DNA of 36,024 nt from an uncultured Nitrospira sp. GTDB taxonomy: Bacteria; Nitrospirota; Nitrospiria; Nitrospirales; Nitrospiraceae. This document shows, one piece after another, positions 13,141-34,465 of the stretch (position 1 is its first letter; each line of letters starts with the position of its first letter). A program made the translations under genes and the position numbers. A model generated the notes under the pieces. That model was given only the letters and a program-made list of their open reading frames with translations. It did not search any database and was not told where the DNA came from. The stretch spans positions 1-36,024 of the forward strand of contig CABVRV010000032.1 in NCBI GenBank assembly GCA_902500755.1, in the 5' to 3' direction.

Positions 13141-16100
13141 CTACACCCATTCCGGAGCCTCCGCTTGGCTCACCTCACCTCCCCCAAACAGACTGTAGAG
13201 CACCGGCAGGACAACGAGTGTCAGCGCTGACGAGGTGAAGAGTCCTCCGATCACAACCGTCGCAAGCGGCCGCTGAACCTCGGCGCCAATCCCTTGCGCA
13301 AGCGCCAGCGGAAGCAGTCCGAGCAACGTCGTCATCATTGTCATCACGACCGGGCGAAGACGAAGGCTGCAGCCGGCCAGAATCGCCTCGTCGATCTGCC
13401 GTCCCTCGTTGCGCAGCTGGTTGATATAGGAAACCAACACGATCCCGTTTCCCACTGCGAGTCCGAACAGCTCGATGAAGCCGATGGAGGCCGGCACGCT
13501 CAAATACTGCCCGCTCAGCCACAGAGAGACCACGCCACCGATCAACGCGAACGGGAGATTGAGGATGATCAAGGTCGCATACCGCAGCGAATGGAACGCC
13601 CAGAAGAGGAGGAAGAAGACGAGACCCAGCGTGATCGGCACGACGATCATCAACCGCGCATTGGCCCGCTCCATATTTTCAAACGCGCCGCCCCAGACGA
13701 CGGTATACCCTACCGGCAAGTGGAGCTGTGCCGCGAGCTTCGCGCGCCCTTCATCTACGACGCCACCGATGTCCCGGCCGACGACATTGAAGCCGACGAA
13801 GATGCGGCGTTTCACATGCTCACGGCTGATGCGCGCTGGCCCTTCACGCATTTCGATGGTTGCGAGATCACTCATCGGGATCAAGGCTCCGGATGCCGCC
13901 TTCACCCGAATCTCCCCGACACTCGCAACACTGTTCCGGTATGGCTCCGGGAATCGTAAGATGAGCTGAAATCGCCGCTCACCTTCATAGACCTGCGTCG
14001 CCGGTTTACCACCGATCGCCGTGGTGATGATCTCCTGCACGTCGGCCACGTTGATGCCAAACCGGGCAATTCTCTGACGATCGATGTCGATGGTGAGATA
14101 AGGCTGTCCGGAAGTTTGTTCGACCTTGATGTCTTTGACTCCCTCAATCCGCTGCAGCAAAGATGCGATCTCCTCCGCTTTGTTCCACAGTACGTCGAGG
14201 TCGTCACCGAATAGCTTGATCGCGCATTCGGTCCTGATACCGGAGATCAACTCATCCACCCGTTCCTGAATCGGCTGGCTCATCAGCACGGAAATTCCGG
14301 GAATTTCAGCCAATTTGTTCCTAATGGCGTCGGTGAGTTCCGACTGCGTCTTAGCTGTCTTCCAGGTGCTTCGATCGTGCAAGGTCACTACCGGGTCGCT
14401 CTCGAATGGTTCTTCAGGTGTATACGCGATTTCCGGCCTCCCGATTTTGCTCACGGCCATACGAACCTCCGGAAACTCCAACATCGCCTTATGGGTCTGT
14501 TTCTCCATCTCGATGGATTCCGGCAGAGACACGCTCGGCAGACGGACGATTTGAGGGGTGAGCGCACCTTCCTCCAGTAGGGGTATAAACTGCCGTCCAA
14601 TGAAGGGCACAAGGGCCACGCTGGCAAGCACGATGGCCGACGAACCGGCCAGGACGCCTATCCGATGCCGCAGGGTCCATTGCAGCACTGGCAGATAATG
14701 CTGCTTCATCCAGCGAGCGAGGCCCGTTTCCTGCGGATGGTCACCACGCAGGAGCAGCGACGCGAGCACTGGTGACAAGGTCAGTGTCACCACGACCGAA
14801 GCTAAGAGTGCGATTACCAAGGTGTAGGCCAGCGGGGCGAACATCTTGCCTTCCATCCCTTGCAGCGTCATGAGCGGCAGGAACACGACGCTGATGATCA
14901 GAATGCCGAATAAGATCGGCCGACCCACTTCCTTCGTGGCATGAAGAATGACGCTGAGCCTGCTTTCCTGCGAGGCGCCGCGATGTTGGGCAAGGTGCCG
15001 ATAGGCATTTTCCACCACGACCAGGGACCCATCAGCGATCTCGCCGATGGCGATCGCCAGCCCGCCAAGCGTCATCAAGTTGGCGGAGAGCCCAAACCCC
15101 TCCATAGCGATAAAAGTCACAAGCGGCGTGACGATTAACGTGACCGTCACAATAACGGCACTACGGACATGGCCCAGGAAGAAAAAGAAGACGAAGACCA
15201 CCAGCACAATCCCCTCAATCAATGCGTCACGGACCGTGTGAATGGCGGCATTCACCAGCTCGATGCGATCGTAGAAGGGAATCAGTTTCATCCCTGACGG
15301 GAGGACATTGCTTTGCTGCAGATCCTCCACCTTGGTCTTGACGGCTTCGACCACCTCGCGGGCATTACCTCCGCGCAGCATGAGCACGATGCCGGCAACG
15401 ACTTCCCGCTCCCCATTGAGCACCACCGCACCATGGCGAACGGCTTGGCCGATGCGGACCTCCGCCACATCGCGAAGAAAGATTGGCGTGCCACCGGATT
15501 CCTTCAGGATGATCGATTCGATATCACTCATGTTCTTGATCAGACCCAACCCCCGGACAATCGCACGCTCTGCATGACGCTCCAGGACATTCCCGCCGGC
15601 ATTGGCATTGTTCTTCGCAACGGCCTCGTAGACCTGGTGCAGCGTCAGATCGAATTTACGCAGCTTGGCCGGATCGACGAGGACCTGATACTGTTTGACG
15701 AACCCACCCATGCCGTTTACATCGATCACCCCCGGCACGCTCTTGAGAAGCGGTCGCAGGACCCAGTCTTGGATGGTCCGCTGGTCCGTCAATTCCCGCT
15801 CGACGACCTGAGTATCAATCACCGTGGCACCGGGCCCTGTCCTGAGCTTTGTCGAAGGGCCCTCCACGTAGTATTGATAGACTTCTCCCAACCCGGTACT
15901 GACCGGCGCCATCACTGGTTCGATCCCTGGTGGCAATCGTTCGTTCGCCGCGATCATTCGTTCCAGCACCAACTGGCGGGCAAAATAGACATCGACATCG
16001 TCCTTGAACACGACCGTGATCTGCGACAGTGCGAACTTAGACAGCGACCGGATCTCCGTTAAGCCCGGCAGGCCGGTCATTTGGATTTCGAGCGGATAGG

Positions 16101-16296
16101 TGATAAACCGTTCGACTTCGACCGGCGATAACCCCGGCGCGTCGGTCAGTACCTGCACTTGGATGTTCGTCACGTCGGGGTAGGCATCGATTGGGATCGA
16201 CTCAAAGGCGATCACACCAAGGACGGACAACAGACAGGCGAGGCCGATGACCAGTATTCGTTGCCGCAGCGAAAATTCCAGCAGAGAGGCGATCAT
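13141..16296 (-). CDS. czcA: Heavy-metal RND efflux pump, CzcA/CusA family
   Basis: 1051 residues, the usual length for HME-RND pumps. It starts MIASLLEFSLRQRILVIGLA (first membrane helix), followed by IPIDAYPDVTNIQVQVLTDA, the CzcA/CusA N-terminal signature. GGLAIAIGEIADGSLVVVEN carries the helix-4 acidic residues used in proton relay. The two large periplasmic loops (residues about 35-335 and 560-870) include the second-half porter region with SQPIQERVDELISGIRTECA, also family-typical. The C-terminal helices end in LVVLPVLYSLFGGGE. It exports divalent or monovalent metal ions from the periplasm or cytoplasm using the proton gradient. The metal cannot be assigned safely. Its ATG overlaps the adaptor gene's stop (ATGA), so they are coupled. 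No outer-membrane factor gene is present. Confidence 0.93.
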   Translation of the reverse strand: MIASLLEFSLRQRILVIGLACLLSVLGVIAFESIPIDAYPDVTNIQVQVLTDAPGLSPVEVERFITYPLEIQMTGLPGLTEIRSLSKFALSQITVVFKDDVDVYFARQLVLERMIAANERLPPGIEPVMAPVSTGLGEVYQYYVEGPSTKLRTGPGATVIDTQVVERELTDQRTIQDWVLRPLLKSVPGVIDVNGMGGFVKQYQVLVDPAKLRKFDLTLHQVYEAVAKNNANAGGNVLERHAERAIVRGLGLIKNMSDIESIILKESGGTPIFLRDVAEVRIGQAVRHGAVVLNGEREVVAGIVLMLRGGNAREVVEAVKTKVEDLQQSNVLPSGMKLIPFYDRIELVNAAIHTVRDALIEGIVLVVFVFFFFLGHVRSAVIVTVTLIVTPLVTFIAMEGFGLSANLMTLGGLAIAIGEIADGSLVVVENAYRHLAQHRGASQESRLSVILHATKEVGRPILFGILIISVVFLPLMTLQGMEGKMFAPLAYTLVIALLASVVVTLTLSPVLASLLLRGDHPQETGLARWMKQHYLPVLQWTLRHRIGVLAGSSAIVLASVALVPFIGRQFIPLLEEGALTPQIVRLPSVSLPESIEMEKQTHKAMLEFPEVRMAVSKIGRPEIAYTPEEPFESDPVVTLHDRSTWKTAKTQSELTDAIRNKLAEIPGISVLMSQPIQERVDELISGIRTECAIKLFGDDLDVLWNKAEEIASLLQRIEGVKDIKVEQTSGQPYLTIDIDRQRIARFGINVADVQEIITTAIGGKPATQVYEGERRFQLILRFPEPYRNSVASVGEIRVKAASGALIPMSDLATIEMREGPARISREHVKRRIFVGFNVVGRDIGGVVDEGRAKLAAQLHLPVGYTVVWGGAFENMERANARLMIVVPITLGLVFFLLFWAFHSLRYATLIILNLPFALIGGVVSLWLSGQYLSVPASIGFIELFGLAVGNGIVLVSYINQLRNEGRQIDEAILAGCSLRLRPVVMTMMTTLLGLLPLALAQGIGAEVQRPLATVVIGGLFTSSALTLVVLPVLYSLFGGGEVSQAEAPEWV

Positions 16297-17540
16297 AGCG
16301 ACGGCTCGATCTTGTGCCGTTCCATTTCGGACTTGAGGGCGAAGGAGCCCTTCGTCACAACCTGTTCGCCTGTTGTGACCCCTTCTAACACTCTGACCAC
16401 GTCTCCCTCTTCATTCCCCAACTTGACGGTCCGCGCTTCGAAGGTGCCGGCTTCCCGTTGAACAAACACCATCTTGCCGACAGGTCCATCCTGGACGGCC
16501 TCTAACGGTACGCTCAGCACGTCCGGACTTGAGATTGCCAACACGCTGATGATGGCGAACATTTCCGGCTTCAACAGTCGATCGGAGTTCGGCACGGTGA
16601 CCCGCAGGCTCATCGTGCGAGTTGCCGGGTCAAGTACGTCTCCGAGATAGGTGATGGTCCCACCGAAGATCGCATGGGGATAGGCCGCCACGACTACGGT
16701 GACTTTTTGATCCTTGCGGATGAATCGCACGTCCTTCTCCGGCACATTGCCGATCACCCACACATCCGTGAGATTGGCCACGGTAAAGAGCTTCTGCTCT
16801 GTTTCAACTACTTCTCCCCTCGTGATGTTTCGGGTGATGACTCGCCCGTCGAATGGTGCGCGTAGGGGCATGTCGGCCTTGATCGTCAATTCTCGATCAA
16901 GCCTGTCGATCTCCTCAGGAGGCACACCAAGCAATTGGAGACGGTTTTTTGCTTCCCGCACTTCGGCTCGTGCCGTCTTCATGGCAGCTTCGCGTCGTTG
17001 CAGTTCCGCAAGGCTGACAGCCTTGTTTTCATACAGATCCTTGGCGCGGAGATGCGCCAGCTCCGCTTCATGCAGTCTTGCCCCGGCCTTGAGATAGTCT
17101 CCTTCCGCAACGCCAAGGTCCACGCTATGGAGCATCGCCAGGAGCGCACCCTTTTTCACGTCCTGCCCGACATCGACATGGACCTTCACAACCCGGCCAC
17201 GAATTAGGGTGGTGACCTCGGCCAGTTCGTTTTGGTTGGCCTGGACGGTGGCGGGAAATTCACGATGTGAAAGAAGTTGCCCATGCGTCACCGGCACGAG
17301 TTCCAGCTGCATGCGGGACAACTCTTCCGGCGTGAGACGCAACAGCCCTGATTGTGCGGAATGTGAGTCCGGTTTGACTGTAGAGGTATCCGACGGTTTG
17401 TTCTCGCAGGCAATGCCCACCGTTATGATTACGCAAGTCGTCAGACTACATATGGCCCGAGCGAGAAATTTAGTTGGCCTTTGATTCGGTCGGTTATAAC
17501 CCACGGATCGCAACTCCTTGGCATGGCGCTTCGAGCTCAA
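16293..17540 (-). CDS. czcB: RND periplasmic adaptor (membrane-fusion protein), CzcB/CusB type
   Basis: Up to 415 residues from a TTG at 17538-17540 with GAGGAAGG just upstream. A GTG at 17504, preceded by AAGGAG, would remove 12 residues and gives an equally good export signal (AICSLTTCVIITVGIACENK, possibly acylated at the Cys although the lipobox is weak). The rest is a classic adaptor: barrel-sandwich half GRVVKVHVDVGQDVKKGALL, alpha-hairpin (about 150-215, EAELAHLRAKDLYENKAVSL), second lipoyl half MPLRAPFDGRVITRNITRGE, beta-barrel and membrane-proximal domain. It joins the inner-membrane pump to an outer-membrane channel. It is the first gene of the czcBA unit, divergent from the gene at 17742. 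Confidence 0.9.
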   Translation of the reverse strand: MSSKRHAKELRSVGYNRPNQRPTKFLARAICSLTTCVIITVGIACENKPSDTSTVKPDSHSAQSGLLRLTPEELSRMQLELVPVTHGQLLSHREFPATVQANQNELAEVTTLIRGRVVKVHVDVGQDVKKGALLAMLHSVDLGVAEGDYLKAGARLHEAELAHLRAKDLYENKAVSLAELQRREAAMKTARAEVREAKNRLQLLGVPPEEIDRLDRELTIKADMPLRAPFDGRVITRNITRGEVVETEQKLFTVANLTDVWVIGNVPEKDVRFIRKDQKVTVVVAAYPHAIFGGTITYLGDVLDPATRTMSLRVTVPNSDRLLKPEMFAIISVLAISSPDVLSVPLEAVQDGPVGKMVFVQREAGTFEARTVKLGNEEGDVVRVLEGVTTGEQVVTKGSFALKSEMERHKIEPSL

Positions 17541-17741: not shown

Positions 17742-18692
17742 ATGGAAATCCAGCCCCAATTTCCAGACGAACAATCTCCAAGGGGTGAATTTACCCGCCA
17801 GCCGGACGCGTTCCGAGGATGGGTCACAGCCGACGGCAGCTTGGGCTATCTCGCTGAACCGGGACGCTATCATCTCTACGTATCATGGGCCTGCCCATGG
17901 GCCCATCGTACAATCATCGTACGCAAGCTGAAGCAGCTCGAAGGTGTGATCGGGATGACGGTCGTCGATCCTATTCGTGACGAGCGAGGATGGGCATTTC
18001 GCGAGGGGTCGGGCCACTCCCTCGACCCTGTCAATGGGTTTCAGTACCTCCGTGACGCGTATAAGGCGACCGACCCGAACTACATCGGGCGAATCACGGT
18101 TCCCGTGCTGTGGGATCGAGTCACGAAACGCATCGTCACCAATTCTGACGATGACCTGATGAGAATCTTCAACGGTGAGTTCAATCGATTCACTGAAAGC
18201 CCGATCGACCTGTATCCGGACGGACTCCGGCAGGAGATCGACGAGCTCAACTCGTTCATCTACGAGAACGTGAACGATGGGGTCTATCGAGCGGGATTCG
18301 CCACATCGCAACAAGCCCACGAACGAGCCGCAAGGCGATTGTTTGCGGCGCTGGACCGACTCGATGCACGCCTTGCCGTCCGCCGTTACCTATTCGGACC
18401 GGAGCTTGTGGAAACCGACTGGCGACTCTTTGTCACGTTGGTCCGGTTTGATGCGGTGTACTACGGTCATTTTAAGTGCAACATACGGCGAATCATCGAC
18501 TACCCGAATCTCTTCGGATATCTCAAAGACCTCTACCAAACCGACGGCATCGCCGAGACCGTGAATGTCGACCATATCAAGCGCCATTACTACATGACGC
18601 ACGACGACATCAATCCGACTCGTATCGTCCCAATCGGCCCCGACCAAGACCTCTCGACACCGCATGGGCGTGACCATCTAAGCTCGCGTTAG
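17742..18692 (+). CDS. Glutathionyl-hydroquinone reductase (xi-class GST)
   Basis: 316 residues. The N-terminal region carries GRYHLYVSWACPWAHRTIIV, with the catalytic Cys51 in the C-P-W-A-H-R motif that defines xi-class enzymes of the YqjG/PcpF/ECM4 type. RITVPVLWDR and IVTNSDDDLMRIFN give the cis-Pro and glutathione-binding edge. The helical C-terminal domain includes ETDWRLFVTLVRFDAVYYGH, HFKCNIRRIIDYPNL and HIKRHYYMTHDDINPTRIVP, all typical of the family. These cytoplasmic enzymes reduce S-glutathionyl-hydroquinones with glutathione and help in quinone detoxification. AAAGGG lies 11 bases before the ATG, a long spacing. The gene stands alone, divergent from the metal-efflux operon. Assignment is firm. 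Confidence 0.92.
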   Translation: MEIQPQFPDEQSPRGEFTRQPDAFRGWVTADGSLGYLAEPGRYHLYVSWACPWAHRTIIVRKLKQLEGVIGMTVVDPIRDERGWAFREGSGHSLDPVNGFQYLRDAYKATDPNYIGRITVPVLWDRVTKRIVTNSDDDLMRIFNGEFNRFTESPIDLYPDGLRQEIDELNSFIYENVNDGVYRAGFATSQQAHERAARRLFAALDRLDARLAVRRYLFGPELVETDWRLFVTLVRFDAVYYGHFKCNIRRIIDYPNLFGYLKDLYQTDGIAETVNVDHIKRHYYMTHDDINPTRIVPIGPDQDLSTPHGRDHLSSR

Positions 18693-18928
18693 CTGCTCCA
18701 GTCACAATGCCGGAGGCTTCGGATCTTTCCATCCCCGTTCATTGTCTAATGGAATAGACAGTCCTGATGACATTCTCCCCATCTCGCGGAACATGCTTGG
18801 GTTACGCATGGTTGTAGCCGCCTCTTTCTGCGGAGTTTTGGAACAGTCTTTCTTGATCAATTCAAGCACAAGAGTTGCTCCATCACGAACCTATGGGTTC
18901 GCAATCTTTTTAACTGAAAGGAGCAGTT

Positions 18929-19009
18929 ATGGACATGATGTGGCTGTTCGCCCTTGTAATGGGTGCACTCCTCATTGGGGGAATCGTCGTCTACAAGAAG
19001 AGTGTGTAA
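18929..19009 (+). CDS. 26-residue single-helix membrane protein (YxKSV tail)
   Basis: AAAGGAG stands six bases before the ATG, an ideal ribosome site. The frame encodes MDMMWLFALVMGALL, continues as one membrane helix, ends IGGIVVYKKSV and stops at TAA (19007-19009). The short acidic N-terminus and Lys-containing tail suggest an N-out, C-in single-pass protein of the inner membrane. A near-copy of the same length lies at 21384-21467 on the other strand, with identical MD start and Y-x-KSV end. That second copy argues strongly that this is a real gene rather than chance. Transcription probably ends at the terminator at 19154. Candidate roles are a small subunit or regulator of a membrane enzyme or transporter. 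A type I toxin is an alternative. Confidence 0.75.
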   Translation: MDMMWLFALVMGALLIGGIVVYKKSV

Positions 19010-19015
19010 CTCGTC

Positions 19016-19067
19016 GTCCCAGATTGGGACTGCCCCGTGGGAAAGCGCTTGGTTTCCGAGAAGCGCT
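19016..19067 (+). ncRNA. Possible structured 3' region or small RNA after the mini-gene
   Basis: Downstream of the mini-gene the transcript can fold GTCCCA-N3-TGGGAC (19016-19030) and AGCGCTT-N10-AAGCGCT (19044-19067), before the strong terminator at 19154. There is no reading frame with a ribosome site between 19010 and 19153. A 145-base structured leader to a terminator is long for a plain 3' end. It could be a 3'-derived small RNA or an antitoxin-like RNA. The evidence is only these stems. Confidence 0.3.
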
Positions 19068-19153
19068 CATGCTTGGAAAGCCGTCTGGTCGTGGGGATGG
19101 AGACCTCTCCCAGGGCAACTAGACTTTCGCTTCGTCGAGCCCCTTCCTAAATG

Positions 19154-19195
19154 CCATCGCTCGCCTTTCTCAAAGGCGAGCGATGGTTTTGTTTC
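19154..19195 (+). terminator. Strong intrinsic terminator
   Basis: CCATCGCTCGCCTTT (19154-19168), loop CTC, AAAGGCGAGCGATGG (19172-19186): a perfect 15-bp stem followed by TTTTGTTT. This is the strongest terminator in the window. It ends the plus-strand transcript carrying the 26-residue gene. On the minus strand it lacks a U-run after the stem but does have AAA/TTT pairing, so it may also limit read-through from the other side. Confidence 0.9.
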
Positions 19196-19229
19196 TGCGC
19201 GTAATGTCGTAAGTTGATCGGTTTGCGCC

Positions 19230-20075
19230 TTATCTGACAACAAGTACTGAACAGGCACTCTGTTGCGCGAGTTTCATCGAGACGCTGCCTTGGAGAAAAC
19301 GCGTAACGGCGCTTCGCCCTTTGGCCCCTGTGACGACCAGATCCGGCTGCTCGCGATTGACCACCTTCATAATTTCTTCAGCGGCTGGCCCCACGCATGG
19401 AAACTGCCTGACGCGATACCCGATTTTCTCAAGCTTTGCCGCCTCTTGTGCAAGCAGTTTTTCCCCGGCTTCCTTCACCACTGTATAGCGAAGGAACGGC
19501 ATGACATGCACCAGCAGAATGATAGGTGGCTCGGCTTTTGGCCCGACCTTGAACTGCTTGGCGAGGAACCGAAGGGCTTTGGTGGAGGAGGGAGAGCCGT
19601 CCGTCGCCACGAGCATCCGCCGAAGAGTTTGGGGAGGCTCTTTCACAATCAAGACCGGACAGGACGCATGGAGTGTCACGGTTGTCGAGACACTTCCCAG
19701 CACAAAACGATCGATAGCATCTAACCCGCGGCTCCCGACCACGATCAATCCCTTGTGACCCGCCTGTTCGATCAGGGCTTGTGCAATCTTGTCCTGCACG
19801 ACGCGCACCGAGCCCTTAAGCCCTAGCTTCACGAAGCGCTGCTTCGTCTCTGCTTCTACCCGCTTGGCTCGAGACTCCACAAGGTGAATGGCTTCCCCTT
19901 CGTCCGGTTCATACCCGCTGACGAACGGTTGGACGATGAACGACGGTCGTACGGATTGAAGGTCCATCGCATGAATCGCTGTGACTCGTGGCGCCATCCG
20001 AAAAGGCATCTCGCCGAGCCAACCCAACGCCCATTCAGAATACTTTGATCCATCCACTCCTATGACGGCTTTCAT
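19230..20075 (-). CDS. Universal stress protein, two UspA domains in tandem
   Basis: 281 residues from the ATG at 20073-20075 behind GGGAGGAGG; the frame six codons longer lacks support. Domain 1 (about 1-145) begins MKAVIGVDGSKYSEWALGWL and holds GSRGLDAIDRFVLGSVS. Domain 2 (about 150-281) begins RRMLVATDGSPSSTKALRFL and holds GAKGRSAVTRFLQGSVS. Both keep the ATP-binding pattern G-x2-G-x9-G-S, so both sites probably bind ATP. These cytoplasmic proteins accumulate under starvation, oxidative or respiratory stress. It is a single gene, with the plus-strand terminator between it and the mini-gene. Confidence 0.92.
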   Translation of the reverse strand: MKAVIGVDGSKYSEWALGWLGEMPFRMAPRVTAIHAMDLQSVRPSFIVQPFVSGYEPDEGEAIHLVESRAKRVEAETKQRFVKLGLKGSVRVVQDKIAQALIEQAGHKGLIVVGSRGLDAIDRFVLGSVSTTVTLHASCPVLIVKEPPQTLRRMLVATDGSPSSTKALRFLAKQFKVGPKAEPPIILLVHVMPFLRYTVVKEAGEKLLAQEAAKLEKIGYRVRQFPCVGPAAEEIMKVVNREQPDLVVTGAKGRSAVTRFLQGSVSMKLAQQSACSVLVVR

Positions 20076-20313
20076 CGGCCTCCTCCCTTGCACGAGAGAT
20101 TCTTATGACCCAATGTCCTGACTCCGCCTACGCTGATAAGAGAGACGCAACGTTGATGCCACGATCATGCGGCCGTAGCCGCTGTCCGTCAGCCCCTCTT
20201 TCAGGAGAACAATTCAGAAATAAATGAATGGCGGGTAACTCGACTTTTTTGGTACAGTGCGCCACTGCTGCCTCAATGCTCGTGTTATTAATCTCAAGAG
20301 GGTTATCCGAAGG

Positions 20314-21237
20314 ATGAAGACAACAGGCGCGTGTAGGCCGGCCTGCTTCAGGCAAGGTGAATATGGACTCGTTCTTGTCGTCGTATTGATCGTGCTTTCC
20401 GGTTGCGCGGCTCAAAAAGCCGCAACCAGCCCACTCACTCCAAACATCGGACAAAACGCACAGCCTGTTCTTCTGGCTGATGTCGATCCAAGGACCATCC
20501 CGTCAGCAGCACCAGCCCACGACACGGTTTCTGAAGAGCCATTTGATCCGTTTTCCAAACCGGGTGAAGAGGGGGTCGAAGAGTACGATCCATGGGAGCC
20601 ATTGAACAGTAAGGTTTTTGATTTCAACTGGCAGCTTGATCGCTGGCTGCTGAAGCCTGCGGCCAAGGGTTATAACTTCATCGTCCCCAACATCGTCCAG
20701 GTGGGCTTCAGCAATTTCTTCTACAATATTCGTGTCACGCCACGCTTCATGAATAATCTTTTCCAGGGCAAGTTCAAAGGCGCGGGGATAGAAGCGGGTC
20801 GCTTCCTCATCAATACGACGGCCGGGGTGGGTGGATTCTTCGATGTGGCCCAACACTTTCACCTGACCACGCCGGAAGAAGATGCCGGACAGACACTCGG
20901 GTTTTACGGAGTCAGACCCGGCCCCTATATCATGGTGCCGTTTCTGGGACCGTATACCGCTCGAGATCTTGTCGGGTACGTCGGAGACATCGCCCTGAAT
21001 CCCGTCTATTGGTTGATGTTCCCGGTCATTGAGATCGATGCCATTCCTTCCGTCGTCCCCCATGCAAATAGGACAACGAGCTCTCTGATTCTCCTGACGG
21101 CGCGTGGAACAGAAATCGTGAATGATCGCTCATTGAACTTGGAGAAGTTCCAGGGGGTAGAGGAGTCCACCTTGGATCTCTATGCGGCGGTCCGTAACGC
21201 CTACCTTCAAAAGCGCGCCAAGGCAATCCGAGAATAA
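20314..21237 (+). CDS. mlaA: MlaA/VacJ-type outer-membrane lipoprotein
   Basis: 307 residues from the ATG at 20314. A lipoprotein signal ends VVVLIVLSGC with the acylated Cys31; there is no Asp at +2, fitting outer-membrane sorting. After a 60-residue linker comes the MlaA core: DPWEPLNSKVFDFNWQLDRW, NFFYNIRVTPRFMNNLFQGK, GRFLINTTAGVGGFFDVAQH, EDAGQTLGFYGVRPGPYIMV and PFLGPYTARDLVGYVGD. This is the doughnut-shaped phospholipid channel that removes phospholipid from the outer leaflet and passes it to MlaC. No mlaBCDEF genes lie in the window. The ribosome site is unclear (GAGGG 11 bases away). An earlier GTG at 20257 is less likely because it would spoil the signal. Confidence 0.9.
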   Translation: MKTTGACRPACFRQGEYGLVLVVVLIVLSGCAAQKAATSPLTPNIGQNAQPVLLADVDPRTIPSAAPAHDTVSEEPFDPFSKPGEEGVEEYDPWEPLNSKVFDFNWQLDRWLLKPAAKGYNFIVPNIVQVGFSNFFYNIRVTPRFMNNLFQGKFKGAGIEAGRFLINTTAGVGGFFDVAQHFHLTTPEEDAGQTLGFYGVRPGPYIMVPFLGPYTARDLVGYVGDIALNPVYWLMFPVIEIDAIPSVVPHANRTTSSLILLTARGTEIVNDRSLNLEKFQGVEESTLDLYAAVRNAYLQKRAKAIRE

Positions 21238-21383
21238 TTGATCGACGTTCTTCAAGCTCTCGCGTCGTTGTCTTGAAGTGCGCTTGGGGTCTCCCCAACC
21301 AACGACCCCGTTTGGATGACCATCGAGTTGGCTTGCCCCACAGCTCAGTCAGTATCACACATTACGAAGTGGCAGAGCGCCGA

Positions 21384-21467
21384 TTAAACGCTCTTGTTGT
21401 AGATGATAATGCCGACGACGAAGATCACTAGCATCACGGCTGCAAACGTTAAGAAGGTACTATCCAT
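21384..21467 (-). CDS. 27-residue single-helix membrane protein (YxKSV tail)
   Basis: GGAG lies eight bases before the ATG (21465-21467). The product starts MDSTFLTFAAVM, runs through one hydrophobic helix (LVIFVVGIII) and ends YNKSV before TAA (21384-21386). Compared with the 26-residue protein at 18929-19009 it has the same MD start, a membrane helix of the same span with the GxxxY spacing kept, and an identical K-S-V end. The DNA of the two genes is clearly diverged while the protein pattern is kept, which points to selection. It is convergent with mlaA and about 150 bases from its stop. Function unknown; see the twin gene for options. Confidence 0.75.
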   Translation of the reverse strand: MDSTFLTFAAVMLVIFVVGIIIYNKSV

Positions 21468-21880
21468 AGTAGTTACTCCGTTCGCCTGGACCCACCACAG
21501 CAAATGCCCTCAAGGATGAGACCGATGGACAGCTCTTGCCTGAGGAAAACTCCCAAGGACGACAGCCGAAAATCTGATGCCAAACAACAACTTGGCCCCA
21601 TGGACATTGGGAAACCAAGATCTTCCAAAACTTATTCCGCAGAAAACATGTTGTCAAGTAACTTGGACGGAACACCCGGAGCAAATTGATCGGTGCAGAA
21701 TACGAGGAGGCCGCAAGGTCATTACGGTCTTTATAGGCACACAAAGACCGATGAGGATCATAACTACCCCGTGACCGTGAACAGCAGGTTCACTCACCAG
21801 TGAGCAATGAAGCTGCGAAAAATTATGAGGATTATGTATCTTTGTCGAAAAGAATCCGGTGGAAAGCTGGGAAGAAAATA
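21468..21880. other. Gene-free stretch with several short hairpins
   Basis: 413 bases with no supportable gene. CGGTCTTT (21725-21732) pairs with AAAGACCG (21743-21750) around ten bases. Next come GTGAAC-N5-GTTCAC and CTCAC-CA-GTGAG side by side near 21777-21805. None is followed by a good U-run. The cluster lies downstream of the minus-strand gene at 21881 and may hold its transcript end, plus the promoter of the 27-residue gene. Confidence 0.45.
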
Positions 21881-22141
21881 CTAGACAGCAGTCTGAACGC
21901 GACCGTGTCTTGAAGAAACCTTGGAAGGCTCACCTGCTATTGGATAGACCTGAACCGAGTAGGTCCGATCCGGGTCTAGTGTCACGCAAACCTTGCCCGT
22001 CTTATTGAGATAATCGATGGCCAAGTATACTTGATTCCAAGTCAGGTCAGGACACAGCCCCACGACCTCTTCCATTGAGCAGCGAGCCCCAAACTCGTCC
22101 AGTGCCCGATGAACACGTTCTATAATCGCTGAAACCTGCAT
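21881..22141 (-). CDS. Small winged-helix-like protein
   Basis: 86 residues with GAGGAAGG four bases before the ATG. MQVSAIIERVHRALDEFGAR is followed by SMEEVVGLCPDLTWNQVYLA, then IDYLNKTGKVCVTLDPDRTY. This gives two helices, a turn, a putative recognition helix and a two-strand wing, a compact winged helix-turn-helix of about 70 residues. The tail (PSKVSSRHGRVQTAV) is polar. It could be a transcription regulator or, as with many small wHTH proteins, a protein-interaction module. The site ACTAGGGATGTCACTAGT (22202-22219) lies 61 bases upstream and may be bound by it or by the neighbouring response regulator. Confidence 0.7.
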   Translation of the reverse strand: MQVSAIIERVHRALDEFGARCSMEEVVGLCPDLTWNQVYLAIDYLNKTGKVCVTLDPDRTYSVQVYPIAGEPSKVSSRHGRVQTAV

Positions 22142-22201
22142 TCGACCTTCCTCAGCAATACTTTATGATCGAATAATAATCAGTTCGCCCTACACTTGTG
22201 A

Positions 22202-22219
22202 ACTAGGGATGTCACTAGT
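22202..22219. promoter_or_regulatory. Imperfect ACTAGG/ACTAGT repeat, candidate operator
   Basis: ACTAGGGATGTCACTAGT shares 14 of 18 positions with the perfect inverted repeat at 10087-10104. A further ACTAGT lies at 22236-22241. It sits in an AT-rich spacer between the response-regulator stop (22304) and the gene starting at 22141. ACTAG-type words are not rare in this window, so significance is modest. Confidence 0.3.
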
Positions 22220-22303
22220 AAGACGAAGGTATATTACTAGTGGTTTGATATCGTACTTATTATAGACTTCGGTCTCTATCAGGTACCCGACTCGGGAGCA
22301 TCC

Positions 22304-22957
22304 CTACGTCGACACGCTCACGAGGCCCTCAGCGATTGCGTACTTGATGAGCTCGGCGGTGGAATGCAGATCGAGTTCGCCCATGATGCGAAACTTATGG
22401 AATTCCACGGTCTTCACGGAAATATTGAGAATAGAGGCAATCGTTTTGGTGCCTTTTCCCTCCGCGACAAGCTGGAGCACCTCACGTTGCCGTTGTGTCA
22501 AAGACGTCACCAATGGCTTGCTTGGCTGCCCATCCGGAGATTGGAGTGTCGCCGCCAACACATCCTTCGTGATCAGCGGAGTCATGTAATGTTGACCTCG
22601 CATGACGGCCTGAATAGCTTGCTTGAGTTCCACCGCCGCTGATCGTTTTATCAGATAACCTGCAGCCCCAGCCTTAAAGGCTTCTGTCGCATAGGTGGGA
22701 GTGGCGTGCATAGTTAGAAAAATGAGCTTGCTTTCCGGCACCGACTTGGTCAACTGACGCGCCGCATCCAACCCGTTAAGCAGCGGCATGGAGATATCGA
22801 GCAATACGATGTCGGGGCGTAGCTGTTCGGCCATTTCGACCAACGTACGCCCATCTTCCACCATCCCAACCACCTCGCCCTCGGCTTCGACCAGCTTCCG
22901 CAGCCCGGCCAGAACAATGGCGTGATCATCTGCCATCAAAATACGCGGCCGTTTCAT
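22304..22957 (-). CDS. NarL/FixJ-family response regulator
   Basis: 217 residues. The receiver domain (1-120) has the acidic pair in ILMADDHAIVL, the phospho-acceptor Asp54 in IVLLDISMPLLNG, Thr82 in FLTMHA and Lys104 in GYLIKRS, all present. The LuxR-type helix-turn-helix (about 150-212) reads LTQRQREVLQLVAEGKGTKT, then IASILNISVKTVEFHKFRIM. The ATG overlaps the kinase stop by four bases (ATGA), so the pair is coupled. Phosphorylation by the upstream kinase should drive DNA binding as a dimer. Target genes are unknown; the ACTAGG-type sites in this window are candidates only. Confidence 0.93.
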   Translation of the reverse strand: MKRPRILMADDHAIVLAGLRKLVEAEGEVVGMVEDGRTLVEMAEQLRPDIVLLDISMPLLNGLDAARQLTKSVPESKLIFLTMHATPTYATEAFKAGAAGYLIKRSAAVELKQAIQAVMRGQHYMTPLITKDVLAATLQSPDGQPSKPLVTSLTQRQREVLQLVAEGKGTKTIASILNISVKTVEFHKFRIMGELDLHSTAELIKYAIAEGLVSVST

Positions 22958-25677
22958 GTGACCTCCACGTCAATGGGCACCCAAGCACAGACCTTCGTCC
23001 CCTGGGATGGCCGCGACTGAATTCGGAAAAAGCCATGTAATTGCCGCAACCGTTCCTCCATGCTGCTCAACCCCAGGCCTTGTTCATGGGCGCTCAAATC
23101 ATCCAGGTTACACCCTTTTCCATTGTCAATAACGGACAGTCCGACCCCTTTGGAGGACCCACGGAGCTGGACGACCACCTGCGTTGCCTGCGCATGTTTC
23201 ACGACGTTCTGGACACTCTCTTGCATCACCCGGAAGAGACAGGTGGCGTGATCGATGGGAACGGCGGTGGGAACCCCAGCAATCTTGATGCGGATCGGTA
23301 GGCCCGTGCGCCGAGAAACCTGCTGGACATGATCTTCGACGGCTGGACGCAGTCCGGCATGCTCCAAGAGCGAGGGGTGAAGGCGGTAGGCCAGCGTGTG
23401 CACGTCATCGGACAGCTGCTCCAGCTGTTCACGGAGTGGCGTGAGACCGGGAGTCAGTTCAGCCGCGACGCCGGAGGGATGCTGTTCCAACGACGCCACC
23501 TCCAAGACCAACGCCGCTAATCGTTGGCTGACATCATCATGCAGGTCACGAGCAATGCGCTGACGCTCTTGTTCTTGCGCATTCAGCAGCTTGGCCGTCA
23601 GCTCTTCCAACTGGACCTGTTGCTGGTGCAGCGCCTCTTCAGCCTGCTGACGCTCGGTGATGTCGACCGCCACACCTCCCAACAGCACCGGTGCTCCCTT
23701 GTGATCCATAATGGGGAATTTGCTCACAAGTGCGTGTCGAATCTCCCCATTCTGGATGAAGGGCGCGACCGTGTGCAGCGGTACCCCGGTCTCCCGCACC
23801 TTCCGATCGTTGGACTCGTACTGTTCGGCGACGTCCGCCGGCCATAATTCGGAGGCCGTCTTCTCTTTCCAAACCGCTCCCTTCAGCAGGGATTCTTGGA
23901 AGAGTCGATTGACGTACAGATATCGACCCTGGGCATCTTTGATCCACGCAAATCCATGCAAGTGATCCATAAAGGAGGCGAACCGGCGCTCACTGATTTT
24001 CAGCGCCTCCTCGGCCTGTTTGCGTTTCGTGATGTCGATCATGGCACTCAAGGTTCGAGTGGGACGACGCTCGGGCCCTTCATGATCGAATAACGTCCAT
24101 GATCGAACGTTCACCCAGCGGATGCTGCCGTCGGGTCCCAGCACGCGGTGTTCGACTGAGGAGAGATCGTCACCGGCGAGATCCTGCGCTTGCGTAATCG
24201 CCATGGCGACTGCTTGGCGGTCTTCCGGATGGATGCGCTGAAGATACCCCTCCAAGGAGGCCGGTTCATCCGCTTTCACGCCGTAGATTTCCCTCATGAC
24301 CGGCGACCAGTACACTTTTCCTGTGCGATGATTATGGTCAAAAATACCGAAGTTGGCCAGACGAATGACCTGATCCGATCGCTCCTCGCTCTCACGGAGT
24401 GCGCACTTTGCTTCCACGCGAGCGGTCACATCTTCCGTCGCAATCACGATACCGCCGACTTCATCCCCGCTATACCAGGGGCGGACATTCCAGGTTATCC
24501 ACTGTACGGAGCCATCAGATCGGACGAACCGGTCCTCGTCTTCGCTGAGAATTTCTCCAACCAGACCTCGGTGATGGACATCCTTCCAGCGAGCTGAAAT
24601 ATCGGGAAACAGGTCATAGTGGGACCGACCGATGATATCTCCTGTCAGCCGATACTCCTCCATCCAGCGACGGCTTGCCCCCAGATAGCGCATGTCCCGG
24701 TCGAACATCGCGATCGCGGCAGGAGCATGCTCGATGAATAAACGAAACCGCTCCTCGCCTTCACGCAGGGCTTCGTTCACCCACTTCTGACTGGACACAT
24801 CGACTTGAAATCCGATGAGTTCGAGTGGCGCACCACCATCATCGCGAAGAAGACGCACCTCATCGCGAAGCCAGCGATAGGTCCCGTCCTTGTGGCGGAA
24901 CCGGTACTCATGTATATGGCGACCGTGTTCAAAGGTTCTCAAGAGACCGGCCAACACATACGCGCGATCATCGGGATGAATATGGCTGATCCAAAAGTCT
25001 GAGTCGTCGGTGAAGTCCTGCGGACTGTGCCCGAGCTGCTCCACCACGTTCTCACTGACGAATGTCGCGCCATAATCCCCGCTGGCTCTACAGGCGTAGA
25101 GCACCACCGGCGTGGACGTCAATAAGAGTTGTTGCCTCGCCTGCATGGTTCTCAATGCCGTCGTGCGCTCTTCGACGTGCTGCTCAAGTGTCTCATTGAA
25201 CCGGCGAAGTGCGTCCTCCGCCTGCTTCCGCTCTGTAATGTCATTGCCGATCGTGAGTATGCAGGACTTCCCGTTCAGTGTGATTACGTTCGTGGAGATG
25301 AGGAACTGTCGGAGTGCTCCGTTCTTCAGCCGCATGGATACTTCAAGATTCCCGACCGCCCCTTCTGATCGAAGTCGATCGATCAATCGCGCACGCTCGT
25401 GGGGATCTGGCCAGATCCCCAACATCAACGTCGTTTTTCCGATGACTTCGTCTCGACGAAAACCGAAGATCTCCAGGCACGCGTCGTTGATCTCGAGACA
25501 GAGCCCGGTCTCGAGTTCCGTGATACCGATCGGGTGAGGACTCAGGCGGAAGGCTTCGGCAAAGACATCGTCTCCTGCCGATCCGACGGCGTTGTCTTGC
25601 CGATCTCCTGCGTGAAGTGTGGGTGAAAGCGGTCGAGCCCTCACCCAACGCTTTTTCTTGGCGGCTTTGGGTGTCAT
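22954..25677 (-). CDS. Cytoplasmic multi-PAS histidine kinase (NarQ/HisKA_3 type)
   Basis: 907 residues from the ATG at 25675-25677 (MTPKAAKKKRWVRARPLS). The frame is open 76 codons further up but composition there is unlike protein and no ribosome site is clear at either start. Five PAS/PAC units follow, ending near ILTIGNDITERKQAEDAL, ELIGFQVDVSSQKW, GGIVIATEDVTARVEAK, TLSAMIDITKRKQAEEAL and LLGGVAVDITERQQAEEAL. The HisKA_3 box has ERQRIARDLHDDVSQRLAAL with the phospho-accepting His, and the C-terminal ATPase has VSVIDNGKGC-like GLSVIDNGKGCNLDDLS and EQGLGLSSMEERL. No membrane helix is seen, so it senses an internal signal, perhaps redox or a ligand. It forms an operon with the NarL-type regulator. 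Confidence 0.9.
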   Translation of the reverse strand: MTPKAAKKKRWVRARPLSPTLHAGDRQDNAVGSAGDDVFAEAFRLSPHPIGITELETGLCLEINDACLEIFGFRRDEVIGKTTLMLGIWPDPHERARLIDRLRSEGAVGNLEVSMRLKNGALRQFLISTNVITLNGKSCILTIGNDITERKQAEDALRRFNETLEQHVEERTTALRTMQARQQLLLTSTPVVLYACRASGDYGATFVSENVVEQLGHSPQDFTDDSDFWISHIHPDDRAYVLAGLLRTFEHGRHIHEYRFRHKDGTYRWLRDEVRLLRDDGGAPLELIGFQVDVSSQKWVNEALREGEERFRLFIEHAPAAIAMFDRDMRYLGASRRWMEEYRLTGDIIGRSHYDLFPDISARWKDVHHRGLVGEILSEDEDRFVRSDGSVQWITWNVRPWYSGDEVGGIVIATEDVTARVEAKCALRESEERSDQVIRLANFGIFDHNHRTGKVYWSPVMREIYGVKADEPASLEGYLQRIHPEDRQAVAMAITQAQDLAGDDLSSVEHRVLGPDGSIRWVNVRSWTLFDHEGPERRPTRTLSAMIDITKRKQAEEALKISERRFASFMDHLHGFAWIKDAQGRYLYVNRLFQESLLKGAVWKEKTASELWPADVAEQYESNDRKVRETGVPLHTVAPFIQNGEIRHALVSKFPIMDHKGAPVLLGGVAVDITERQQAEEALHQQQVQLEELTAKLLNAQEQERQRIARDLHDDVSQRLAALVLEVASLEQHPSGVAAELTPGLTPLREQLEQLSDDVHTLAYRLHPSLLEHAGLRPAVEDHVQQVSRRTGLPIRIKIAGVPTAVPIDHATCLFRVMQESVQNVVKHAQATQVVVQLRGSSKGVGLSVIDNGKGCNLDDLSAHEQGLGLSSMEERLRQLHGFFRIQSRPSQGTKVCAWVPIDVEVT

Positions 25678-26171
25678 GGGGAGAGAAATTGATTCTAGTC
25701 CACTTACAGGAACCCCGCAAGGACATATTCTCTGCGCATGAGGGATTTTGGCGAACGCGTGCCGCTTCGTCGTGTTGTCAGAACCGAAGCCCTGGCAAGA
25801 GGAACATGAAGTCACGTGGATTGCATGGAAATCGTGCAAGGCCAGGATCATGCCAGCACGATCCCCATCGTGCGGGTGTTTCATCCAGAAGCAAAAGTCG
25901 CCCACGAAGACAAGCCGACAACTCCATCCTTACGATCGACCGCCCTCGCAATTCCGGCAGCGACACCATTGTGCGGCAAGTGGTCGCGTTCTCCGTGCAT
26001 ACAGACCAGCTGATCCATCCTGAACCAGCATGCCGCAGATCATATTATTCCCTTTGCGGCCATGGCAGCAGGCAGAAGTCCGTTTGTCATTTCCGCGATG
26101 GGCGACCCCTTCGTGCTCAGCTTGTCTGTCCATTCGCGCCTGATCTACAATATTATATCCGCGAGGTGTGT
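25678..26171. other. Divergent intergenic region upstream of kinase and lipoprotein
   Basis: About 490 bases. Both strands stay open in long frames here (minus to 25905, plus across the whole region), but neither extension has a ribosome site or protein-like composition. It must hold the promoter of the kinase operon. The plus-strand promoter candidate at 26122-26151 is listed separately. Confidence 0.4.
26122..26151 (+). promoter_or_regulatory. Candidate sigma-70 promoter of the adhesin-E-like gene
   Basis: TTGTCT (26122-26127), an 18-base spacer, then TACAAT (26146-26151), close to TTGACA/TATAAT. Start of transcription would fall near 26158, leaving a short leader that still includes the GAGGTG ribosome site before the ATG at 26172. 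Confidence 0.35.
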
Positions 26172-33126: not shown

Positions 33127-33624
33127 TTAGGGCTCAGGGAGGTCACGCTTGAGGCTGTTATGTTGTTGGCACAAGAATCGAAGGTTTGATAATTCATCTC
33201 TGCCACCCCGAGAAAGAGGTTTTATGTGATCAACGGTCAAGCGATCGAGGACCTCGCATCCGGGGATAGCGCAAACGTGCGGTATACCTGCATCGAGCAT
33301 GGCAAGTACCAGATGTGAGCGTTTGGAGTTGAACTCGGTTCGGCGTATTCTCGTATGACGCTTCCTTGCCTTAGCACCCGCTTCTGCAGCCTTAATCTCC
33401 TCTAACAAGCGCAGATAGTCCTCATACTGGAGCTCTCGGTACTTCGCTAGCGGCCCCATTCCGCCGCAACAGGCATCACAGAGGTGCTGATTGTTCATTT
33501 GGGAATGTGCAGTATGGATGGCCTGGAAAAGTTCTTCCGCCGAGACATCCAGAGCCTCCTCGTGCACGAGAACGCCTACGTTTGGCGCAAAGGATAGGAG
33601 TTTGCCTATATGTATGAGTGGCAT
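33127..33624 (-). CDS. HNH endonuclease-like protein
   Basis: 165 residues, with AGAGG eight bases before the ATG. The C-terminal 50 residues are a canonical HNH finger: PHVCAIPGCEVLDRLTVDHI, KPLSRGGRDELSNLRFLCQQ, HNSLKRD. It contains the zinc pair Cys118/Cys123, the catalytic Asp132-His133, Asn147, and the distal His155. The N-terminal part has HLCDACCGG and a charged helix (YEDYLRLLEEIKAAEAGAKA). It is probably a metal-dependent DNA nicking or cutting enzyme, or a restriction-like effector. It lies between the transposase (68 bases) and the PIN-like gene (92 bases), all minus strand. Mobile-element cargo or a small defence unit are both possible. Confidence 0.85.
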   Translation of the reverse strand: MPLIHIGKLLSFAPNVGVLVHEEALDVSAEELFQAIHTAHSQMNNQHLCDACCGGMGPLAKYRELQYEDYLRLLEEIKAAEAGAKARKRHTRIRRTEFNSKRSHLVLAMLDAGIPHVCAIPGCEVLDRLTVDHIKPLSRGGRDELSNLRFLCQQHNSLKRDLPEP

Positions 33625-33681: not shown

Positions 33682-33705
33682 GGAATTAGGGGTCAGAGTA
33701 CAATT
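33682..33705 (+). repeat. Left 24-bp inverted end of the transposase unit
   Basis: GGAATTAGGGGTCAGAGTAC followed by AATT. It matches the reverse complement of 34466-34489 at 22 of 24 positions. It contains the transposase TGA. The core AGGGGTCAG is seen once more at 35296-35304. Confidence 0.75.
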
Positions 33706-34400
33706 TCCGATCTGATCACTCCTTTTGGTCGCCCCCGTGTTTCCCCAATCAACCGCCTTCCGACTTTACTCCCAATTTCCTCCTGAAAGGATTCACTCCC
33801 CACCACTCGCCCCAGCTGCGTCGCCTTCCGGATATGCTCCCATTCAGTGTCAGATACCGAGTCCTCTAGCCACTTGGCATAGGCCGAGGCTCGCGCCTGT
33901 AGGTTATCCCCCAGCGTGACGTACCAGGGGTCCTCATCCAGCAGAGGAGCCGGTTGCCCCAGGGCACGTCCGTGATAGCTGCTCCATCGGTAGTCGCGGG
34001 GGTGACGCACCATTCCCGCTCGAACGGGGTTCAATTCAATGTACCGGCTACATGCGATTAAATATTCATCCCGGCTCACAATCGCACTCTTGAAGCGCCC
34101 TTCCCATAAGGTGCCCGTGCGCTTATAGGCGTCATTTACATACCGGACATACCGACGCCCGACACTCTGCATGAAACGACCCAAATCGCCTTCGTGTTCC
34201 GGCTCCACTAAGAGATGAACATGGTTGGTCATCAACACGTAGGCATAGAGTCGTGCCCGGCATTTGTGTTTGGCCTCTCGCAGACAATTCAGAAAGACCT
34301 CATAGTCCTTCGGCGCAAGAAATATGGGCTGCCGGTTGTTGCCGCGCTGGATGACGTGATGGGGGTAAGACGGCAGGCTAAGTCGAGGCGAACGCGCCAT
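33693..34400 (-). CDS. REP-associated tyrosine transposase (Y1_Tnp family)
   Basis: 235 residues from the ATG at 34398-34400; the upstream TTG is less likely. It starts MARSPRLSLPSYPHHVIQRG and NNRQPIFLAPKDYEVFLNCL, the RAYT N-terminus. YAYVLMTNHVHLLVEPEHEG carries the HUH metal motif (His-x-His). YVRYVNDAYKRTGTLWEGRF, KSAIVSRDEYLIACSRYIEL and NPVRAGMVRHPRDYRWSSYH are the family's signature blocks; the catalytic Tyr lies in the YIEL region. It nicks single-stranded DNA at REP-type hairpins. The C-terminal extension (GSKVGRRLIGETRGRPKG) is common in the group. The gene looks intact and may be active. Confidence 0.92.
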   Translation of the reverse strand: MARSPRLSLPSYPHHVIQRGNNRQPIFLAPKDYEVFLNCLREAKHKCRARLYAYVLMTNHVHLLVEPEHEGDLGRFMQSVGRRYVRYVNDAYKRTGTLWEGRFKSAIVSRDEYLIACSRYIELNPVRAGMVRHPRDYRWSSYHGRALGQPAPLLDEDPWYVTLGDNLQARASAYAKWLEDSVSDTEWEHIRKATQLGRVVGSESFQEEIGSKVGRRLIGETRGRPKGVIRSEIVL

Positions 34401-34465
34401 GGTCAAGGATCCTCGCGAACCAATGAGACGGACAACCTACGCCGATGCTGGCTTTACTGTCAATT

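Follow-up and report, generated by a model that had tools for sequence, protein, structure and literature searches.

An apparently undescribed, multi-copy family of single-helix mini proteins that co-occurs with ammonia-oxidation genes in Nitrospira

Introduction

The archaeal ammonia monooxygenase (AMO) has been described as containing the small, mainly helical membrane subunits AmoX, AmoY and AmoZ, which are restricted to one group of ammonia oxidisers, and the AMO subunit genes of the Nitrososphaeraceae are described as scattered over the genome (PMC10030591). For the bacterial members of the wider superfamily, the account of the Rockwell crystal structure of particulate methane monooxygenase (pMMO) reports one extra helix that was left unidentified (PMC8098663). 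Among respiratory enzymes, CydX is described as a single-transmembrane mini protein of 37 amino acids (aa) (PMC4325964). Here we report on two genes for comparably small proteins, hereafter minis, in a 36,024-nucleotide (nt) stretch of DNA from an uncultured Nitrospira sp. (the window; contig CABVRV010000032.1 of assembly GCA_902500755.1), and on the family to which they belong.

The minis share with AmoX, AmoY and AmoZ that they are small helical membrane proteins found almost only in an ammonia-oxidiser group and encoded by scattered genes. The archaeal proteins differ in their domain of life and in that AmoZ, of 12.8 kDa, has an N-terminal soluble domain, and no sets of paralogues comparable to the minis were noticed in that account (PMC10030591). 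The likeness is one of description. The extra pMMO helix resembles the minis in being a single helix in the AMO/pMMO superfamily, but it comes from a methanotroph, and the likeness is in kind. The archaeal subunits and the pMMO helix are therefore precedents for an idea and not evidence of membership. CydX-type subunits are likewise single-transmembrane mini proteins, but the minis match no such family and no oxidase genes were noticed near them. FixQ/CcoQ proteins (PF05545), also short, single-transmembrane proteins with an MD start and a basic end, are longer than the minis, and no cbb3 oxidase genes were noticed by eye among the neighbours of the minis, where no profile search was made for them.

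Results

Two paralogous genes of one mini family

The locus I gene (18929-19009, plus strand) encodes a 26-aa protein with a single transmembrane helix (MDMMWLFALVMGALLIGGIVVYKKSV, followed by a stop codon). Its ATG is preceded at a distance of 5 nt by the Shine-Dalgarno sequence AAAGGAG (18917..18923, plus strand). The locus II gene (21384-21467, minus strand) encodes a 27-aa protein, also with a single transmembrane helix (MDSTFLTFAAVMLVIFVVGIIIYNKSV, followed by a stop codon), and GGAG (21476..21479, minus strand) lies 8 nt 5' of its ATG. An upstream TTG start would lengthen the locus II frame to 39 aa; the ATG is kept in the orthologues examined. A first-pass annotation of the window had proposed both frames and their ribosome sites at these positions, and we find both there. 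It had also proposed that the two proteins resemble each other beyond chance and belong to a real family.

Usual gene calling tends to skip peptides shorter than about 30 residues. In the window's genome (G000; 3.83 Mb in 203 contigs), the locus II protein as sole query recovered the copy on contig C4 with an E-value of 3.1e-4, and matched the C1 copy and the locus I mini weakly (E about 0.6). A four-row profile (A1), comprising both C32 copies and those on C4 and C1, added a copy on C2 (E 0.004), together with numerous matches outside this genome. The window's genome thus has five copies: two on C32 and one each on C4, C1 and C2. With the A1 profile, matches at E ≤ 1 were obtained in 35 of 59 genomes; the convincing ones were in 29 genomes, all of one genus. 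Across the genus Nitrospira, minis occur in 64 of 80 genomes, with 1-10 matches per mini-bearing genome at a threshold of E ≤ 0.001; a small number of these matches may be parts of longer frames. A 22-row profile (A2) searched against 246 genomes of the phylum gave no convincing copy outside the genus; what matched there did so weakly (E 0.007-0.1), inside frames of at least 132 aa. No description of the family was found in the open-access PMC literature, and the minis apparently constitute an undescribed gene family.

The family table holds 96 rows, 15 weak partial matches (E 0.13-0.90, mostly inside long frames) having been left out. Without the truncated copy of G012 and the short copy of G021, 94 full-length members remain (79 distinct proteins). 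All 94 start with M-[DE], and a recognisable ribosome site precedes 93 of them. The family-wide tail is Y-K-K-[SG]-x; the tail that the first-pass annotation had read as shared by the two window proteins therefore holds, except that its final V is not general.

As a control, we scored 10,696 small open reading frames (ORFs) of 18-45 aa, with nested starts included, drawn from a 400-kb sample of genome G024 into which, by chance, none of its known copies falls. The best of these reached 7.6 bits with the family model, versus 37.9-60.0 bits for the minis at MlaA loci, except those of region L146 (19.9 and 17.1 bits). The pattern M[DE]...[YW]x[KR][SG], which describes the two ends of the protein, was seen in one of 2,179 ATG-ORFs (20-32 aa) of the control and in three of 171 in the window, one of the three (33514-33597) being unrelated to the family. 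The likeness of the minis is thus beyond chance.

Comparison of synonymous with nonsynonymous change, which had been suggested as a check, indicated purifying selection. The ratio of nonsynonymous to synonymous substitution rates (dN/dS, Nei-Gojobori) was 0.07-0.27 in six groups defined by sequence prefix: 0.15 for locus I (17 sequences), 0.18 for the 27-aa group of locus II (11 sequences), 0.07 for its 26-aa MDTLI group (6 sequences), 0.14 for locus III (11 sequences), 0.13 for locus IV (10 sequences) and 0.27 for the MESS/MDSSLLM group (6 sequences). An early stop was seen in one of the 96 rows. The outcome that the first-pass annotation had named as refuting a family, namely no related frames in close relatives or frames in which stops and frameshifts are tolerated, was thus not what we observed. 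Overall, the data strongly support the two window frames as paralogues in a real, multi-copy family of single-pass membrane proteins of 25-31 residues.

Co-occurrence with ammonia-oxidation genes

Among the 80 genomes of the genus, AmoC (PF04896) was found in 58, and all 58 carry minis. Conversely, AmoC is missing from all 16 mini-less genomes. Without correction for descent, Fisher's test gives a p value of 2.8e-12. Six genomes have minis and no AmoC; AmoA was found in four of these (G008, G283, G286 and G294), and a full match of HAO type (E 1e-137) in a fifth, G222. In a set of 35 same-genus genomes tested for AmoA (PF02461), the protein was found in 20, all with minis. Of the other 15, AmoC was found in nine, exactly the nine with minis, and AmoB in four, all of which have minis. 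The AmoC of G002, G006 and G031 is present as fragments only. Neither AmoA nor AmoB was found in the six of the 16 mini-less genomes that were tested for them. The HAO family gave no match in 13 of the 16 mini-less genomes. The other three, G279, G290 and G305, each have a multi-haem match that is distant yet passes the Pfam cut-off (E 2e-31 to 4e-30); strong HAO matches in nine mini-bearing genomes had E-values of 1e-130 to 1e-140. Among the genomes searched, minis are thus nearly confined to comammox Nitrospira, which carry out complete ammonia oxidation from ammonia to nitrate, and almost never occur in the examined relatives without ammonia-oxidation genes, a near-perfect co-occurrence.

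The descent of the trait was followed with rpoB. The larger DNA tree had 33 rows, two of them outgroups and the others from 31 of the 80 Nitrospira genomes. The short sequence of G304 (960 bases) and the partial ones of G034 and G285 were left out, and no rpoB was obtained from G014, G033, G289, G017, G293 and G295. In this tree, the mini-less G288 groups with G009, G294 and G292 (support 100/100), and the mini-less G290 with G021 and G284 (100/99). Neither G288 nor G290 has AmoC or a strong HAO match. A 24-row rpoB DNA tree placed all mini-bearing rows in one group, broken only by G288; the protein tree was poorly resolved. Approximately unbiased (AU) tests against a single mini-bearing clade, made after seeing a tree, gave p values of 2e-5 (24 rows) and 7e-7 (33 rows). 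Because G288 and G290 nest in mini-bearing clades, the co-occurrence seems to go beyond a single clade marker, though independent events are few.

One conserved helix face

In 36 non-redundant sequences, the conserved positions, numbered from the tyrosine of the tail, are F(-15), V(-12), M(-11), L(-8), G(-5), G(-4), V(-1), Y(0), K(+1) and K(+2). Over periods of 60-180 degrees, the entropy moment was largest at 100 degrees (shuffle p 0.0003), placing the conservation on one face of a helix. The mean Kyte-Doolittle hydropathy of the 15-residue core is 2.79. From the charge pattern, the N-terminal Asp/Glu is probably outside and the C-terminal Y-K-K inside. Such one-faced conservation would be expected if one side of the helix packs against a fixed partner or another copy of itself; it would be less expected of a peptide that only perturbs membranes.

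Comparison with known families

Searches of Pfam, PHROGs and PADLOC returned weak matches only for the minis, and no library names a convincing relative. Among 22 members searched, FixQ (PF05545) was matched at best at an E-value of 0.15, in two members, and FixQ/FixS identity was rejected. Three members passed the cut-off of 15.9 bits of the LPXTG anchor model TIGR01167 (16.1, 17.3 and 18.4 bits; E 0.0025-0.013); the remaining 19 were below this cut-off or without match. LPXTG anchors share with the minis a hydrophobic helix followed by basic residues, on which the match rests, starting at profile position 8 or later in all rows seen. The minis, unlike such anchors, are free peptides and not the end of a long protein, and all 22 lack the LPXTG motif, so this identity was also rejected. 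Matches to DLW-39 were weak, and the best PHROG, phrog_3879 (E 0.0014, three of 22 members), is of unknown function; neither was accepted. With the defence models, one member matched ZorA at E 0.056.

Weak profile matches inside frames of about 170-290 aa (best E 1.7e-4 in the genus, and 0.01-0.05 in other genera of the family) were judged to be likenesses of helices and not members. At two such loci that were followed, the match is the N-terminal helix of one longer protein of 210-214 aa, found in several Nitrospirota genomes (region L134, 1453-2097; region L137, 1459-2091). This helix is possibly the distant origin of the mini family, or the likeness is due to chance.

At the level of RNA and mobile elements, an Rfam search over 18600-22300 gave the P17 sRNA as its sole match, at 18 bits versus a gathering score of 45. 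Two locus II leaders folded no better than shuffled sequences (z-scores 0.01 and -0.36). In a consensus of 16 of the 20 locus II rows (68% mean identity, four rows left out), two-sided change was seen in one of 17 consensus pairs. One family member was searched against 50,697 phage and 72,556 plasmid records and matched none of them.

Candidate roles of the minis

Comammox Nitrospira are important nitrifiers, and the genes that they keep beyond amo, hao and the cytochromes are poorly defined. We tentatively favour a role for the minis in a membrane complex that takes part in ammonia oxidation, which they would join as accessory single-helix subunits or control as regulators; this seems to us quite possible. 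The conserved F-V/M-L-GG-V-Y face would dock the helix on one inner-membrane partner, which may be a complex of the ammonia-oxidation branch, either AMO itself or its electron partners. The paralogues, having different promoters, could supply the mini under different conditions as condition-specific isoforms. The first-pass annotation had suggested accessory subunits of a respiratory or transport complex; the one conserved face and the co-occurrence with ammonia oxidation favour a subunit, as a candidate role predicted from sequence. A bolder version, modelled on the archaeal and methanotroph precedents, is that the minis would be missing single-helix subunits of the bacterial AMO assembly, or of its quinol or cytochrome partner, in comammox Nitrospira, swapped as isoforms according to conditions and lost whenever ammonia oxidation is lost; we consider this version unlikely. 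The family would serve as a new marker for comammox genomes and would give a concrete list of candidates for extra helices of AMO or of a partner.

Several observations weigh against a role in ammonia oxidation. No mini was found in the three amo regions examined (L245-L247, 6-16 kb each), and a fixed subunit is usually linked or single-copy. A profile search of the PDB, in which the AMO entries 9leg, 9pxf and 9cl6 are present, gave no mini-like chain, the sole match being PsbM at E 0.71. One genome with a single mini, G284 (87% complete, 440 contigs), yielded no AmoA, AmoC or HAO. In several genomes the AmoC call rests on fragments at contig ends, and the mini-less G290 retains a distant multi-haem match. 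On the 33-row rpoB tree, the mini trait needs a minimum of four changes, and G288, G290 and G298 are incomplete metagenome-assembled genomes (87, 82 and 78%); the co-occurrence may therefore rest on one gain plus a few losses. Single copies can decay, as shown by the locus II orthologue of G012 (region L112, 6053-6097), which stops early after 15 residues (MDSTFLVFTGVLLAI); G012 retains other copies. Finally, a genome can have as many as 10 copies, diverged and preceded by dissimilar upstream regions, which would suit regulators or stress peptides equally well.

The last point leads to the possibility, on balance rather unlikely, that the minis are small regulatory membrane proteins responsive to stress or nutrients, each paralogue answering its own signal and tuning a transporter, kinase or protease, with the link to comammox reflecting lineage history. 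The many loci and the differences between the upstream regions of paralogues would suit such proteins, as would the neighbours of loci I and II, namely a universal stress protein (USP), a glutathione S-transferase (GST)-fold protein and two-component genes, to which locus I adds a CusA/CzcA-family RND transporter and its adaptor. Stress regulation does not account as readily for the retention of at least one copy by all 58 AmoC-bearing genomes, nor for the loss of all copies inside mini-bearing clades by G288 and G290, which lack AMO; this is more than lineage history predicts, though the events are few and the genomes incomplete.

It is distinctly unlikely that the minis belong, as subunits or assembly factors, to a different membrane complex, such as a terminal oxidase, complex I or a quinone-linked enzyme, in a special comammox form. 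Their size and topology are like those of CydX or FixQ/CcoQ-type subunits, and FixQ was matched by two of the 22 members, but at the E-value given above. No match to any such family was convincing, and visual inspection of the neighbours, ten of which were scanned with Pfam, brought up no conspicuous oxidase gene.

Type I toxins, that is, membrane-damaging peptides repressed by antisense RNAs, which the first-pass annotation had also considered, are a very improbable identity: the minis are small, hydrophobic, multi-copy, intergenic and of narrow taxonomic range, much like the often duplicated Ibs, TisB, Ldr and ZorO, and the leader of locus II spans roughly 155-190 nt, but the minis have a single conserved helix face, the leader structure is unsupported by folding or by paired change, the sole Rfam match falls below its gathering score, the member searched matched no phage or plasmid record, and scans of the window showed no sigma-70-like antisense promoter, scans which also missed the conserved promoter of locus II.

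Control regions of the two loci

Orthologue alignments comprised 17 regions for locus I and 20 for locus II. Upstream of locus I, the motif GCA[CT]-N5-TTGCT (18866..18879, plus strand) begins 61-70 nt before the ATG. The motif was found in all 17 locus I orthologues (the MDM/MDT group) and in three of the 79 other rows (G002, G008 and G009). It resembles the consensus of the sigma-54 -24/-12 element, but lacks the first G of the -24 part. Given this distribution, a single sigma-54-like promoter for all paralogues was rejected. Further upstream, the inverted repeat TGTCTA-N6-TAGACA (18743..18760), whose TGTC...GAC core is kept in the 17 locus I orthologues, is a possible operator or part of a promoter. 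An intrinsic terminator with a 16-pair stem (19153..19187, plus strand) lies between the locus I gene and the convergent USP gene. The structured transcript tail that had been thought to merit a closer look thus exists and is an ordinary terminator.

Locus II has a sigma-70-like promoter, TTGACA-N17-TAAGTT (21629..21657, minus strand), and TTGACA occurs upstream in 17 of the 20 locus II rows. This conserved promoter was not reported by the promoter scan of the window, which gave no sigma-70-like promoter on either strand. The leader is about 155 nt in the window and roughly 170-190 nt in most orthologues. The upstream regions of different paralogues are unlike each other, and regulation therefore probably differs between paralogues. 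By eye, TTCAT/TTCAC repeats about 11 bp apart, resembling a Pho-box-like direct repeat, were seen upstream of MD[AT]NW minis (regions L103, L104, L105 and L108).

Gene neighbourhoods

Names of neighbouring genes were assigned by eye, except for the ten scanned with Pfam. Locus I recurrently follows a gene for a GST-fold protein (17742..18692, plus strand; Pfam GST_C_2 and GST_N_2; glutathionyl-hydroquinone reductase-like by eye), at a spacing of about 236 nt. Convergent to it is the USP gene (19230..20093, minus strand; Pfam Usp). Locus II is convergent to the gene for an MlaA lipoprotein (20257..21237, plus strand; Pfam MlaA). Its other neighbours are genes for a NarL/LuxR-type response regulator (22304..22957, minus strand; Pfam Response_reg and GerE) and a multi-PAS histidine kinase (22954..25905, minus strand; Pfam), and an 86-aa gene without a Pfam family. 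The response regulator is 56-58% identical to a paralogue beside amoCAB in G024 (region L247, 11303-11956) and 26-49% identical to regulators near other minis. No such regulator was found in 20 control stretches (400 kb of G024). The paralogous response regulators hint at a shared regulatory link between locus II and amoCAB.

In 17 regions with two minis, 15 pairs are convergent, 1.5-2.6 kb apart, and two are tandem; MlaA sits between the minis in all 15 convergent pairs, from 15 genomes including that of the window. The USP and MlaA flanks noted at first are thus syntenic at these two loci, and copies elsewhere have other neighbours, including genes for an NHL-repeat protein, a methyltransferase, ProA-like proteins and an RNA recognition motif (RRM) protein, among others. 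Since neighbours differ among loci, the common factor is the mini and not a partner gene.

Of 80 MlaA loci in Nitrospira and other Nitrospirota, 38 have a mini, L146 among these only a diverged one. Two mini-less loci, L159 and L165, end soon after MlaA. For N. moscoviensis (L172) and Ca. N. defluvii (L187), no mini was found within 6 kb in the MlaA locus. On contig JABMDK010000002.1, two MlaA genes lie about 7.6 kb apart with minis beside each (L145 and L153), an apparent duplication of a mini-MlaA unit. Upstream of locus I in the window, 13141-17540 encodes an RND transporter of the CusA/CzcA family, for heavy metal efflux, together with its adaptor, with synteny in many of the regions examined. 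Elsewhere in the window, the frame at 33693-34406 resembles, by eye, a REP-associated (Y1) transposase.

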